Origin: Candidatus Hodarchaeaceae archaeon
GTDB taxonomy: Archaea; Hadarchaeota; Hadarchaeia; Hadarchaeales; Hadarchaeaceae
Length of the DNA: 37,282 bases
Direction of reading: 5' to 3'
NCBI GenBank assembly: GCA_030018135.1
Contig: JASEGJ010000010.1
Location: 1 to 37,282, forward strand
Within the stretch, counting starts at the first letter, position 1, and the number at the start of each line of letters is the position of its first letter. This document shows, in pieces, positions 26,843-37,179 of the stretch. The position numbers and the translations under genes are program-made. A model generated the notes under the pieces. The model made no database searches. It saw only the letters and a list, made by a program, of their open reading frames with translations, and was not told where the DNA came from.

Positions 26843-27385
26843 ATGGCAGGGGTAAAAACACAAATTCAAAACATAGTGCTGTCCGTCACCTACGAGGGCA
26901 TAGAGTTCAACCTCGAGAAGCTGGCGAAGTCCCTGGACGGGGCGAGGTACGACCCGGAGGTCTTTCCGGGCATAGCGTATAAGTCGGAGGATCCTTCGGC
27001 GTCATTTCTCATCTTCTCATCGGGCAAGATGAACTGCGTCGGCGCAAGAAGCATGAACGACGCCAGGCAGGCGATAAAGAAGCTGACGAAGAAGCTCAGA
27101 AAGGCCAGCGTCAAGGTAAAATCCGAGCCGAAGGTCGAGGTTCAAAATATGGTCGCTTCCTTTGACTTCGGAAGGGAGTTCGACCTCGAGCGAATCGCAC
27201 GAAGTTTTGAGAACACCGAGTACGAGCCCGAGGTCTTTCCGGGGCTCGTCTTCAGGCTCGACGATCCTCCTGTCGTAGTGCTGCTATTCGTGTCGGGGAA
27301 GGGCGTCTGCGCTGGCGCTAAGAGCATGAGGGACGTAAAAAAGGCGGCACAAAAGATAACTAAATTACTTTCCCGCCGAGCATAG
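26843..27385 (+). CDS. tbp: TATA-box binding protein TBP
   Basis: 180 residues, two TBP repeats (about 6-92 and 97-180). Each has the signature segments: IQNIVLSV / VQNMVASF, YDPEVFPGIAYK / YEPEVFPGLVFR (intercalating Phe), and FLIFSSGKMNCVGA / VLLFVSGKGVCAGA. It recruits TFB and RNA polymerase at archaeal promoters. An ATG after GAGGGGTGGAAA sets the start. The gene is preceded by a small ORF and a palindrome in its promoter. It is strong evidence that the window is archaeal. Confidence 0.95.
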   Translation: MAGVKTQIQNIVLSVTYEGIEFNLEKLAKSLDGARYDPEVFPGIAYKSEDPSASFLIFSSGKMNCVGARSMNDARQAIKKLTKKLRKASVKVKSEPKVEVQNMVASFDFGREFDLERIARSFENTEYEPEVFPGLVFRLDDPPVVVLLFVSGKGVCAGAKSMRDVKKAAQKITKLLSRRA

Positions 27386-27420
27386 TGGCCCAGTTTGCCC
27401 CGCAGCTCCCACAGAATTTT

Positions 27421-27433
27421 ATAACAACGTTAT
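27421..27433. promoter_or_regulatory. Operator candidate 1: ATAAC-AAC-GTTAT
   Basis: A perfect palindrome overlapping the TATA box (GTTATATTTATAAGG) of the Cys-rich peptide ORF. The sequence after it matches that at 37167 (operator, then TAT-ATAAGG) over about 26 bp allowing four differences. Confidence 0.75.
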
Positions 27434-27460
27434 ATTTATAAGGGGGGGGTTTATCGAAGT

Positions 27461-27473
27461 ATAACGGTGTGAT
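27461..27473. promoter_or_regulatory. Imperfect second operator: ATAAC-GGT-GTGAT
   Basis: One arm is identical to the palindrome and the other has one mismatch (GTGAT). It sits 40 bp after the perfect copy, close to the expected transcription start, and just before the ribosome site. A paired arrangement would permit cooperative binding. Confidence 0.4.
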
Positions 27474-27488
27474 AGAGGAGGTAATCCA

Positions 27489-27518
27489 ATGAGGAATAGC
27501 CTTTGCGCCTGCTGCTGA
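27489..27518 (+). CDS. Nine-residue Cys-rich peptide ORF, MRNSLCACC
   Basis: ATG 27489 is six bases after GAGGAGGT, the strongest ribosome-binding site near any gene here. The ORF is MRNSLCACC then TGA. It has its own TATA box and the sulfur-island operator upstream. No plus-strand gene follows: the next gene is on the minus strand and ends at 27579. A T-run (CCTTTTTCC, about 27537) could end the transcript. Three Cys codons in the last four suggest a Cys-sensing leader or a thiol-metal micro-peptide. Reading through TGA would add CVGR before TAG. Confidence 0.55.
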   Translation: MRNSLCACC

Positions 27519-27578
27519 TGCGTCGGGAGATAGGCCTTTTTCCTCCCAATTACCATCAACCGAAAACGAATTGTGTTC

Positions 27579-28373
27579 CTAATCTGTTTCTACCATATAT
27601 CTCTTCAGTTTCTCAGCGAGTTCGGCGGGAAGTGGCATAGATTCCATGAGCGTCGTATCCGTACAAACGGAAACGGTCGAGCACTCGGCCACCACTTTAC
27701 CCGACGTGAGATTTTTGATGACATTTCTGAACTTTATGTGCTTCCGTCCAACCTCTTCCACCCAGACCGCGACCTCGATCATGTTGTCCAATCTGACTGG
27801 CCCAAGTATCCTGCCCGAGGTCTCCACGGTTGGGACAAACAGGCCAAACTTGTGGATTAACGCGGCATAGCTGAAACCGAGGCCCTCGAGAAGCTCCTGC
27901 TGCGCCCGCTCGCAGAACCTAAAGTAGTTCGTGTAGTGCATGACTTGTAGGTAGTCCGTGTCCGAGAGGGAGACCTTATAAGATCTCTTGAAAGCGTTGC
28001 TGGGTATGAAAATTTCCTTCTCAGCGACTGCCATGGGTTCCGCTACCTCCGGCTCGATACTTGCTATCGACCCACGGACCCCTAAAGAATTCAGCAATTT
28101 ATCCGTTTCATCCGTGGCCTTTTCTTTCGCCGCTTTTTCGTCGAGCCCAGCATCCAGCAGTTCCTGTGTGCGGATGTCCCGGTACAATGCCACATTTTCC
28201 ATGAAATCTTCTGGGCTGAGCTTACCTATTATCATGCCGGCGTGGATCATGACCAAGTCACCGGACGAGATCCCGCTCGCCGCCACGACGACCTCTTTCT
28301 TAACTCCGCCGAAATCCACGAGGGCTGTGGGACCATCGAGGCTAAGGATTTTTGCTGGAACGCCCCAACACAT
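27579..28373 (-). CDS. HypC fused to a hotdog (4HBT) thioesterase-like domain
   Basis: 264 residues from ATG 28373, chosen because HypC needs Cys as residue 2 (MCWGVPAKI); GGGAG lies nine bases upstream. Residues 1-75 are HypC, the chaperone that with HypD carries the Fe(CN)2CO unit for NiFe hydrogenase. After a helical linker, residues about 125-264 form a YbgC-like hotdog domain (LSDTDYLQVMHYTNYFRFCE, then GPVRLDNMIEVAVWVEEVG). HypC is normally about 75-95 residues; this fusion is unusual. It overlaps nothing but starts one base after the hypD stop, so the pair is co-translated. Confidence 0.8.
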   Translation of the reverse strand: MCWGVPAKILSLDGPTALVDFGGVKKEVVVAASGISSGDLVMIHAGMIIGKLSPEDFMENVALYRDIRTQELLDAGLDEKAAKEKATDETDKLLNSLGVRGSIASIEPEVAEPMAVAEKEIFIPSNAFKRSYKVSLSDTDYLQVMHYTNYFRFCERAQQELLEGLGFSYAALIHKFGLFVPTVETSGRILGPVRLDNMIEVAVWVEEVGRKHIKFRNVIKNLTSGKVVAECSTVSVCTDTTLMESMPLPAELAEKLKRYMVETD

Positions 28374-28374
28374 G

Positions 28375-29622
28375 TTAGCCATCTCCCGATCGTGCCTCGG
28401 ATTTAACCGAACTCATCTCGCTGTACCTGGCCCAGATAGCGCATGCCCCCTCCGAGGATACCATACATGGCCCCCACGGGTTCAGCGGGGAGCAGCCCTT
28501 CATGAAGAGGGGGCAGTCCGCGGGCTTAGCTATGCCGACGATGACCTCGCCGCACCTACACCTTGGAGGGAGGTCGTGCTCCCATGGGACGCCGTGGTGC
28601 GCATGGGTGTAAATAAATTCCTTCGGGGTCAAATCCGGCACGTCGAAGTGTTTCAATGCATCATGCTTTTCGAAAAATTCCCCTTTGAGCTTGAGCCCGC
28701 TTCGGGGGATGAATCCGAGACCCCTCCAAGCCGCATATGCCCTTTCAAAGACCTCGTCAATCAATTTCTTCGCGTATTCGTTCCCTCCCCATTTCACGAG
28801 CCGCTTGTACTCTATCTTTACCGCGGGTCTGTTCTCCTTTATCATCAGGAGTATCTGGGCCACCGCCATCAGGACGTCGATCGGCTCAAACCCTGCGACC
28901 ACGGTGGGCAAACCGTGCACCCGCGGAAGGAACTCCCACTCCGCCGCGCCGATTATGGTTGAGACGTGGCCTGGCGCTATAACCCCCCTTATCGGCAACA
29001 ACCCGCGCTCTTGGTGGATCTTGACAGTGTACTTCATCGATGGCGGGGTCAACCTCATTACGTTAAGGAATTTTAGGTCCTCCGAAACCATTCCCCTCGT
29101 CAGCGTCAACGCGTAACTGGGGGCCGTCGTCTCGAACCCTATGCCGAAAAACACGCTCTCTTTTCCTTGCTCACGCGAGTCCCTTGCCGCATCGAGGAAG
29201 CTATAAACGACTTTGACATCGCCGCCATCCACCTTAACTTCTTGGAGGCTGGCAGGGCATCCGGCCTTTGCGCTGCGAAGTCTCAGCGAGTCGCCATAGG
29301 TGTAAATCCTGATGCCTTCCCGCGCGAGTTTTACTGCGACATCGACATAGTACGAGGGGACAACGCACACGGGGCAACCTGGTCCAGCCACCATGTCCAA
29401 GAAAGGAGGAAGGAGGTCCCTCAGGCCGTAGTAGGTTGTGGTCCATTCGTGGGTGCCGCAGAAGTTCATTATCTTGATCGCGTCGCATTTCTCCCTCTCC
29501 CTGATCGCGCTAGCGTACTTCCATATGGTGTCCCTAAGCTTCGACGCTAGCGGTAGGTTCTGCCTGAACACTTGTCTTATGAGTTCCCGGTCATCGAGCT
29601 GACTTTTCAAGTACCGCACCAT
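28375..29622 (-). CDS. hypD: HypD, hydrogenase Fe-site assembly scaffold
   Basis: 415 residues with MNFCGTHEWTTT, AGPGCPVCVVP, TFxFGIGFETTAP-type segment (FFGIGFETTAP), GVIAPGHVSTIIG, VAGFEPIDVLMA and the C-terminal 4Fe-4S Cys set (RCRCGEV, DCPLFMKGCSPLNPWGPCMV). HypD holds the iron while cyanide and CO are attached. The usual CGTHEHT motif reads CGTHEWT, losing one His. The upstream region has an AT-rich promoter-like stretch (29623-29660). hypE, hypF and hydrogenase genes are not in this window. Confidence 0.92.
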   Translation of the reverse strand: MVRYLKSQLDDRELIRQVFRQNLPLASKLRDTIWKYASAIREREKCDAIKIMNFCGTHEWTTTYYGLRDLLPPFLDMVAGPGCPVCVVPSYYVDVAVKLAREGIRIYTYGDSLRLRSAKAGCPASLQEVKVDGGDVKVVYSFLDAARDSREQGKESVFFGIGFETTAPSYALTLTRGMVSEDLKFLNVMRLTPPSMKYTVKIHQERGLLPIRGVIAPGHVSTIIGAAEWEFLPRVHGLPTVVAGFEPIDVLMAVAQILLMIKENRPAVKIEYKRLVKWGGNEYAKKLIDEVFERAYAAWRGLGFIPRSGLKLKGEFFEKHDALKHFDVPDLTPKEFIYTHAHHGVPWEHDLPPRCRCGEVIVGIAKPADCPLFMKGCSPLNPWGPCMVSSEGACAIWARYSEMSSVKSEARSGDG

Positions 29623-33716: not shown

Positions 33717-33729
33717 ATAACTGTGTTAT
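33717..33729. promoter_or_regulatory. Operator candidate 2: ATAAC-TGT-GTTAT, divergent promoter
   Basis: A perfect palindrome in the 18-bp space between SepCysS (minus) and the TusA-like ORF (plus). TTTAAC on the minus side and CTTAATAAC on the plus side are possible TATA elements that overlap it, so a bound protein would block both promoters. Confidence 0.75.
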
Positions 33730-33982
33730 GTTAAATATCCTTTATCGAAAGCAAGGGTCGGCTCGAAAAATCGATATCCGGGGCGATGTTTGCCCTTACA
33801 CATTCGTGAAGTCGAAGCTCGCGCTGGAGGACATGGAGGGCGGCTAGGTGCTCGAGATCATCGTCGACCACGCGCCTGCCGTCGAAAACGTCCCGAGGAG
33901 CTTGACCAACGAAGGGCATAAGGTGCTCGAGGTTAGACAGGTTGGGGAAAGCGAGTGGAAGATCGTCGTGAGGAAGGCTTAG
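33728..33982 (+). pseudogene. TusA/SirA-like sulfur carrier with an internal TAG
   Basis: One frame from ATG 33728 to TAG 33980 (84 codons) encodes KIDIRGDVCPYTFVKSKLAL, the TusA fold with catalytic Cys in the CPxx motif, then after codon 40 (TAG, 33845-33847) VLEIIVDHAPAVENVPRSL and GESEWKIVVRKA. The TAG replaces a position that is Glu or Gln in relatives (G-E-V-L), i.e. one base change. Both halves are well conserved, so the break is recent, or the stop is read through. It shares an operator with SepCysS, for which it could deliver persulfide sulfur. The only available ATG overlaps the operator. Confidence 0.7.
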
Positions 33983-34581: not shown

Positions 34582-34594
34582 ATAACGTCGTTAT
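34582..34594. promoter_or_regulatory. Operator candidate 3: ATAAC-GTC-GTTAT
   Basis: A perfect palindrome 23 bp upstream of the ThiI-type start codon, overlapping the TATA-like CTTTTAATAAC. Confidence 0.75.
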
Positions 34595-34617: not shown

Positions 34618-35283
34618 ATGAGGGAAAAGGTCGTGTGCTTGGTCTCAGGGGGCATAGATTCCCCGGTCGCCTGCGCCTTGGCCGCTAGTAGGTTCGAGGT
34701 TTTGCCGCTTCACTTCTGCCTTTACCCCTACACGTGCGAGGAGACATTCCTCGTGGCGATGGAGGTGCTGAAGGATCTCAGGAAAAAGGCCAAGTTCAAG
34801 AAGGTCATCGTCTACCCCTGGGCGAGGATTTTGGACGCCATCCTGAAGTATCGGGAAAAGAGGAGCTACGCTTGCCTCGCGTGCAGGAAGAGCATGTTTG
34901 AGGTCGCCGAATCCATCTGCGAGCGGGAGGGGGCGGCGGGAATAGTAACGGGGGAGTCGCTCGGGCAGAAGGCGACTCAGACGTTGACGAACCTTGGTGT
35001 GACCTCCCGGGGGATCAAATTTCCGATCTTCAGGCCCTTGCTCGGCTTGGACAAGGAGGAGATAGAGGGGATCTCCAAGCGGATGGGCATCTGGCACGAG
35101 GTACACGCCGGCTGTTGCTTCGCCACCCCGAGGTACCCGCGGACGAGGGCTGAGCTCGAGGTGCTCGACAAGTTCCTCGAGGACCTAAGGATTCGAGAGG
35201 CGATTCAGCGGGGTTTTGAGGGGATTTTGGAGGTCCGCACCTTCGAGGAGGACTTCAAGGGCTACCTCGAGGCACTCGCATAG
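34618..35283 (+). CDS. ThiI-type PP-loop sulfurtransferase, no THUMP domain
   Basis: 221 residues. The PP-loop is SGGIDSP (10-16). The region YACLACRKSMFEVAESICER, then IVTGESLGQKATQTLTNLGV, is diagnostic of the ThiI AANH domain (tRNA 4-thiouridine synthase / thiazole sulfur donor). The N-terminal ferredoxin-like and THUMP domains are missing, so tRNA recognition must differ, or it serves thiazole or another thiolation. Cys pairs (CLAC, GCC near 164) could relay sulfur. The operator lies immediately upstream. ATG 34618 follows TTAGGG by five bases. Confidence 0.85.
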   Translation: MREKVVCLVSGGIDSPVACALAASRFEVLPLHFCLYPYTCEETFLVAMEVLKDLRKKAKFKKVIVYPWARILDAILKYREKRSYACLACRKSMFEVAESICEREGAAGIVTGESLGQKATQTLTNLGVTSRGIKFPIFRPLLGLDKEEIEGISKRMGIWHEVHAGCCFATPRYPRTRAELEVLDKFLEDLRIREAIQRGFEGILEVRTFEEDFKGYLEALA

Positions 35284-37166: not shown

Positions 37167-37179
37167 ATAACAGTGTTAT
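37167..37179. promoter_or_regulatory. Operator candidate 4: ATAAC-AGT-GTTAT (Thi4 promoter)
   Basis: A perfect palindrome overlapping AT-rich TATA elements. On the minus strand the operator is followed by ATAAATAAGG, closely matching the segment after operator 1. The next gene upstream ends at 37196, so the site can only serve thi4. Confidence 0.75.

Follow-up and report, generated by a model that had tools for sequence, protein, structure and literature searches.

What might a reading frame of nine codons, three of them for cysteine, do where no gene stands behind it? This question is raised by a locus of Candidatus Hodarchaeaceae archaeon. An earlier note on the 37,282-nucleotide stretch that was analysed (the window) had described the ORF, MRNSLCACC, as free-standing, with its own promoter, a pair of operators and a strong ribosome site, and had read it as either an autonomous micro-peptide or a Cys-codon sensor. 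It was found that the cassette is real, exceeds chance and is homologous to a leader that precedes a sulfur operon. Probably, it represents a cysteine-sensing leader of archaeal type whose operon was lost or left behind in the window's genome.

Structure of the cassette

The ORF, the operator pair and the ribosome site were confirmed on the plus strand (Table 1), and the promoter, recognized from sequence only, is putative. The two operators are spaced by 40 bp. Within the Shine-Dalgarno (SD) sequence, GGAGGTAATCC agrees at 10 of 11 positions with the canonical 16S complement, GGAGGTGATCC. The codons of the ORF are ATG AGG AAT AGC CTT TGC GCC TGC TGC TGA. Because TGA terminates 4 of the 20 window genes examined, it was taken as a stop, and its reading as a Sec or Cys codon was rejected. 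A transcript of about 80 nt is predicted. The possible hairpin before the T-run was no better than shuffled sequences and was not called by the terminator scan. A reading of TGATG and CTGA as the boxes of a C/D-box sRNA was also rejected: no convincing C box was seen by eye, and the cassette had no match among Rfam families.

Table 1. Cassette elements and further operators in the window
Feature	Position	Strand	Basis
Operator 1, perfect TATAACNNNGTTATA palindrome, TATAACAACGTTATA, 0 mismatches	27420..27434	+	pattern scan
TATA-like box ATTTATAAG	27434..27442	+	sequence
Operator 2, TATAACGGTGTGATA, 1 mismatch; close to predicted transcription start	27460..27474	+	pattern scan
Extended Shine-Dalgarno sequence GAGGAGGTAATCC	27475..27487	+	sequence
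Nine-codon ORF MRNSLCACC, TGA stop	27489..27518	+	N-terminal codons kept in two relatives
Possible imperfect hairpin, Cys codons on 5' side, directly before T-run	27499..27535	+	z -1.0
T5 run, likely archaeal terminator	27537..27541	+	sequence; archaeal U-tract termination, PMC8716108
Operator between SepCysS (-) and interrupted TusA-like frame (+)	33717..33729	.	pattern scan
Operator ahead of ThiI-type gene	34582..34594	+	pattern scan
Operator ahead of Thi4	37167..37179	-	pattern scan

The cassette lies in a convergent gap between the genes for TBP (26843-27385, plus strand) and a HypC-4HBT fusion (27579-28382, minus strand). In agreement with the earlier claim that no plus-strand gene follows, the next one with Pfam support is ThiI at 34618, approximately 7 kb away and with its own operator. 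The fusion of HypC to a 4HBT thioesterase domain is suggested by long matches in three genomes (G011, G001 and G012); in the relative G005, HypC stands alone.

The order of operator, TATA-like box and, after about 55 nt, ATG is similar to that of the Thr-ED promoters of the relatives G005 (about 55 nt) and G024 (about 37 nt), where a common box also serves SepCysE in the opposite direction. Owing to this resemblance to promoters with a bidirectional box, firing of the window promoter on the plus strand is plausible.

Comparison with chance

One mini-ORF of the window combines an SD sequence with at least three Cys in at most 20 codons, versus 0.13 per dinucleotide-shuffled window; with a one-third-Cys criterion added, shuffled windows contained 0.017. 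At the gene-wide Cys use of the window's genome (1.26%), at least three Cys within eight codons have p = 1e-4. An excess of Cys codons near the stop is present in the short ORFs of the window (CACC-stop) and of Hadesarchaea archaeon CSMAG_1323 (CDCC-stop); by chance, an ORF this rich in Cys and with a ribosome site is expected about 0.02 times per window. The operator pattern with up to two mismatches occurs five times in the window (0.23 expected). Its perfect core occurs five times in the whole 1.1-Mb genome, including four times in the window; the reversed control gave zero. The sole perfect operator outside the window in this genome (contig C23, L040:1713-1725) precedes a predicted secreted protein. 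Operators with one mismatch elsewhere in the genome were set aside; they resemble background and adjoin no tRNA-Cys.

Homologous leaders in relatives

The earlier note had proposed a search of relatives for a Cys-rich ORF behind the same operator. A DNA-level search of 28 Hadarchaeota genomes for the pattern MRxx(L)CxCC gave two matches, the window and CSMAG_1323, with the operator before both. In CSMAG_1323, the operator is followed by GGTGGTGACG, the ORF MRDLLCGCCDCC with its stop codon, a hairpin with T5, and genes for TauE/SafE (TSUP), AprA and AprB. The hairpin, TGGTCA-N7-TGGCCA with CTTTTT, was identified between leader and operon by the terminator scan. TauE/SafE was assigned to PF01925, AprA scored above the NF005331 cut-off, and the AprB-like ferredoxin scored below the aprB cut-off.

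Another leader was found in Ca. Hadarchaeum sp. DR5_53_9 (G001), in the order operator, GGTGGTGGCA with GGTGGTG, MRDLVCLNSD and its stop codon, AGCC-TGAC-GGCTTTTTT with T6, TSUP and AprA. Its TSUP is 62% identical to that of CSMAG_1323, and its T6 run with a 4-bp stem was not called by the terminator scan. The ORF ends at a TAA after one Cys, and CC before a further stop codon comes next in the same frame; either this leader is degraded, or the TAA is an error of the assembly, whose coverage is low (3.5x). Two of the three known leaders are therefore rich in Cys.

Between the window and CSMAG_1323, 21 of 27 nucleotides are identical in codons 1-9, versus 7 of 60 upstream and 19 of 60 downstream; between CSMAG_1323 and DR5_53_9, the value is 17 of 18 in codons 1-6. 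The conserved element is the reading frame, and conservation is confined to it. RNA structure was rejected as a conserved feature because the leader folds were near those of shuffled sequences, the CSMAG_1323 hairpin excepted. This hairpin was also the only call of the terminator scan over the three leaders; the window has its T5 run without a called hairpin. At the ends of both Cys-rich leaders (window 27516-27521; CSMAG_1323 L046:4347-4352), a Cys codon stands directly 3' of the TGA (TGA TGY), and the TGATG at this site could permit restart.

The earlier note had counted loss of the ORF where the operator stays as evidence against its proposal. The ORF was kept, though of about 45 operators in relatives no more than 2 have it, and each of these two ORFs precedes TSUP-AprAB. 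Weak short matches aside, AprA was seen solely in the two genomes with the leader-bearing operon. A sulfur operon follows the leader in cis in CSMAG_1323 and DR5_53_9 and does not in the window. A spread beyond Hadarchaeota was considered and rejected: the pattern occurred in 15 of 394 archaeal genomes, versus about 13 with reversed-pattern controls. Since the matches are at about the control level and those outside the phylum have neither operator nor SD, no wider spread is claimed.

Genes adjoining the operator

Exact sites of the operator, ATAACNNNGTTAT, are present in 12 of the 22 genomes of the family. In loci of four Hadarchaeota genomes, one of which (G024) belongs to another family of the same order, the operator adjoins tRNA-Cys(GCA) at 10-20 bp upstream (L027:2302, L028:8931, L029:1930 and L038:5537). 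It follows that tRNA-Cys itself appears to be part of the regulon. Further neighbours in the family and order are SepCysE/SepCysS, the Thr-ED protein (PF08915), ThiI-type genes and Thi4, together with a small HTH protein and an aminotransferase of class V (NifS type); inside the window, the operator stands next to SepCysS, ThiI and Thi4. Together with TSUP-AprAB of the relatives, these genes make the link to a sulfur operator stronger than originally proposed. Judged by the genes that it adjoins, the operator marks a Cys-tRNA/sulfur regulon of Hadarchaeota.

An XRE-type HTH gene has the operator upstream (L028:8038-8433; homologues L146-L157). Within the family, it was detected in 9 of the 12 genomes with the operator versus none of the 10 others (p = 4.6e-4), and because of this co-occurrence its product is likely to be the repressor of the regulon, subject to autoregulation. 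The window's own genome (93% complete) gave no match to this candidate repressor.

Diverging from SepCysS at a common operator, a TusA-like sulfurtransferase frame (33728-33982, plus strand) matches PF01206 with E 8e-24 when read through. One in-frame TAG interrupts it, possibly as a result of a pseudogene, recoding or an assembly error.

Orphan state of the window cassette

No match to AprA was found in the window's genome at 93% completeness. The orthologous TSUP was not found there either, the search yielding a distant match of 28% alone. Because of this, the window cassette is regarded as an orphan. In G005, where ThiS, TBP and HypC are ordered as in the window, only about 70 nt separate TBP from HypC, and this gap contains neither operator nor ORF. 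Therefore, the cassette was either gained in the window's genome or lost in G005. Its conservation at the TBP-HypC junction was rejected, as it is missing in G005, the sole relative in which this gene order was seen. Both the stand-alone state and the second operator before the leader were seen in the window's genome only.

Interpretation and alternatives

The element may be explained, with a probability of about 0.6, as a Cys-codon leader cassette of the Hadarchaeota Cys-tRNA/sulfur regulon, which is the TSUP-AprA-AprB leader in two relatives and an orphan here. In the relatives, its layout is of the attenuator type: an ORF, with Cys codons at its end in CSMAG_1323, then a U-run and the operon. 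A Cys-codon sensor is favoured over a micro-peptide because the homologous ORF precedes a sulfur operon in two relatives, with a terminator-like site between them in one. Of the two readings in the earlier note, the sensor thus gained from the leader position, and a conserved stand-alone micro-peptide found no support, the ORF being stand-alone in one genome only. Against the leader reading count the small set of three leaders, one of them with a single Cys, the folds close to shuffle level, the terminator call limited to CSMAG_1323, the lack of a match to the candidate repressor in the window's genome, and a window promoter that might equally fire on the minus strand.

From the arrangement of these elements, repression, ribosome stalling and control of termination may be proposed as follows. 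Upon shortage of sulfur or cysteine, the repressor, probably the XRE-type HTH protein, would free the promoter. A ribosome on the leader would then sense charged tRNA-Cys at the Cys codons directly before the stop, and its delay there would determine whether RNA polymerase halts at the U-run or continues into the operon. Termination in archaea depends on aCPSF1/FttA and a U-tract (PMC8716108, PMC11616081), and the delayed ribosome could alter termination of this kind. In the window's genome, the cassette would yield only the RNA of approximately 80 nt and a nine-residue peptide, as a relic or through reuse in trans.

Reduction to a pure relic has somewhat less than an even chance. According to this explanation, TSUP-AprAB was lost or moved and a functionless stub of promoter and leader was left, a scenario that leaves room for the leader reading in the relatives. 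It is favoured by the failure to find AprA and the orthologous TSUP and by the syntenic gap of G005 without the element. However, no part of the cassette, from the operators and the TATA-like box to the SD and the ORF, looks damaged, and the second operator is peculiar to the window. If the Cys-codon leader did become an orphan here, loss of the operon may have been the cause. A doubtful extension of the leader reading is that an attenuator-type Cys leader, freed from its operon, now acts in trans as a tiny, operator-controlled Cys-sensing RNA or peptide and reports Cys-tRNA charging to other targets.

It is unlikely that the locus encodes a trans-acting sRNA or dual-function RNA, in which a transcript of approximately 80 nt, or read-through antisense to the 3' end of the HypC-thioesterase gene, regulates mRNAs with the Cys codons as tuning. 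The stand-alone promoter and U-run would suit such an RNA, and leader peptides are able to act in trans (peTrpL, PMC7298713), but no significant structure, Rfam match or target was identified.

An autonomous micro-peptide, made upon derepression of sulfur metabolism and binding metal, persulfide or thiols through its Cys residues, is quite unlikely. CACC and CGCCDCC resemble metal-binding sequences, the SD is strong, the window has no cis target, and stand-alone small proteins containing Cys are produced in Methanosarcina mazei (PMC11456600). Nevertheless, the product has only nine residues, the ORF is in the leader position ahead of the operon in both relatives, and in DR5_53_9 a single Cys precedes the stop.

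Finally, it is highly improbable that the promoter with the operator acts for the minus strand and that the ORF arose by coincidence: on that strand, CCTTATAAATATAACGTTGTTATA has the TATA-operator order of the DR5_53_9 leader and the SepCysE promoters, but the same bidirectional box drives genes both ways in G005 and G024, the ORF has two homologous leaders that also follow this operator, and the transcript would run antisense into TBP.

Comparison with known systems

Leader peptides that respond to amino acids are a textbook bacterial device. The literature search gave no paper that mentions leader peptides or attenuation in archaea, which is weak evidence of absence because subscription papers were mostly outside its scope. 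If the Cys-codon leader reading is true, an archaeal leader of this kind would be wired to an operator common to tRNA-Cys and SepCysE/S. In this lineage, which reportedly forms cysteine on its tRNA, charging and biosynthesis are one process. The leader would also give a defined test case for control of aCPSF1/FttA and U-tract termination by archaeal ribosomes.

In its passages on RNA-dependent cysteine synthesis, PMC5424206 reports that Hadesarchaea encode this route (SepRS/SepCysE/SepCysS) and describes no leader. SepCysE/S and tRNA-Cys have the operator in common with the cassette; the pathway is the regulated function and not the element. peTrpL, encoded by the trp attenuator of Sinorhizobium meliloti, is a leader peptide with a role in trans (PMC7298713). 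The likeness lies in a leader peptide possibly acting in trans, whereas peTrpL is bacterial and unrelated in sequence.

In the account given in PMC9031893 (citing Canestrari et al. 2020), mycobacterial polycysteine leaderless uORFs sense Cys supply via ribosome speed, and the downstream genes are attenuated. Their starts are leaderless, whereas the Hadarchaeota leaders, as read from their DNA, have a strong SD or GGTGGTG together with the operator. The cys/cbs operons of actinobacteria have leader peptides with runs of Cys near the stop and no conserved terminator hairpins, and Rho-type termination was proposed for them (Seliverstov et al. 2005, PMC1262725). These leaders resemble the present one in being short ORFs with Cys codons near the stop and, as in the two relatives, ahead of sulfur or cysteine genes. 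However, they are bacterial and the operon follows, whereas the Hadarchaeota case is archaeal, has an operator common to other sulfur genes, precedes TSUP-AprAB in relatives and is free-standing in one genome.
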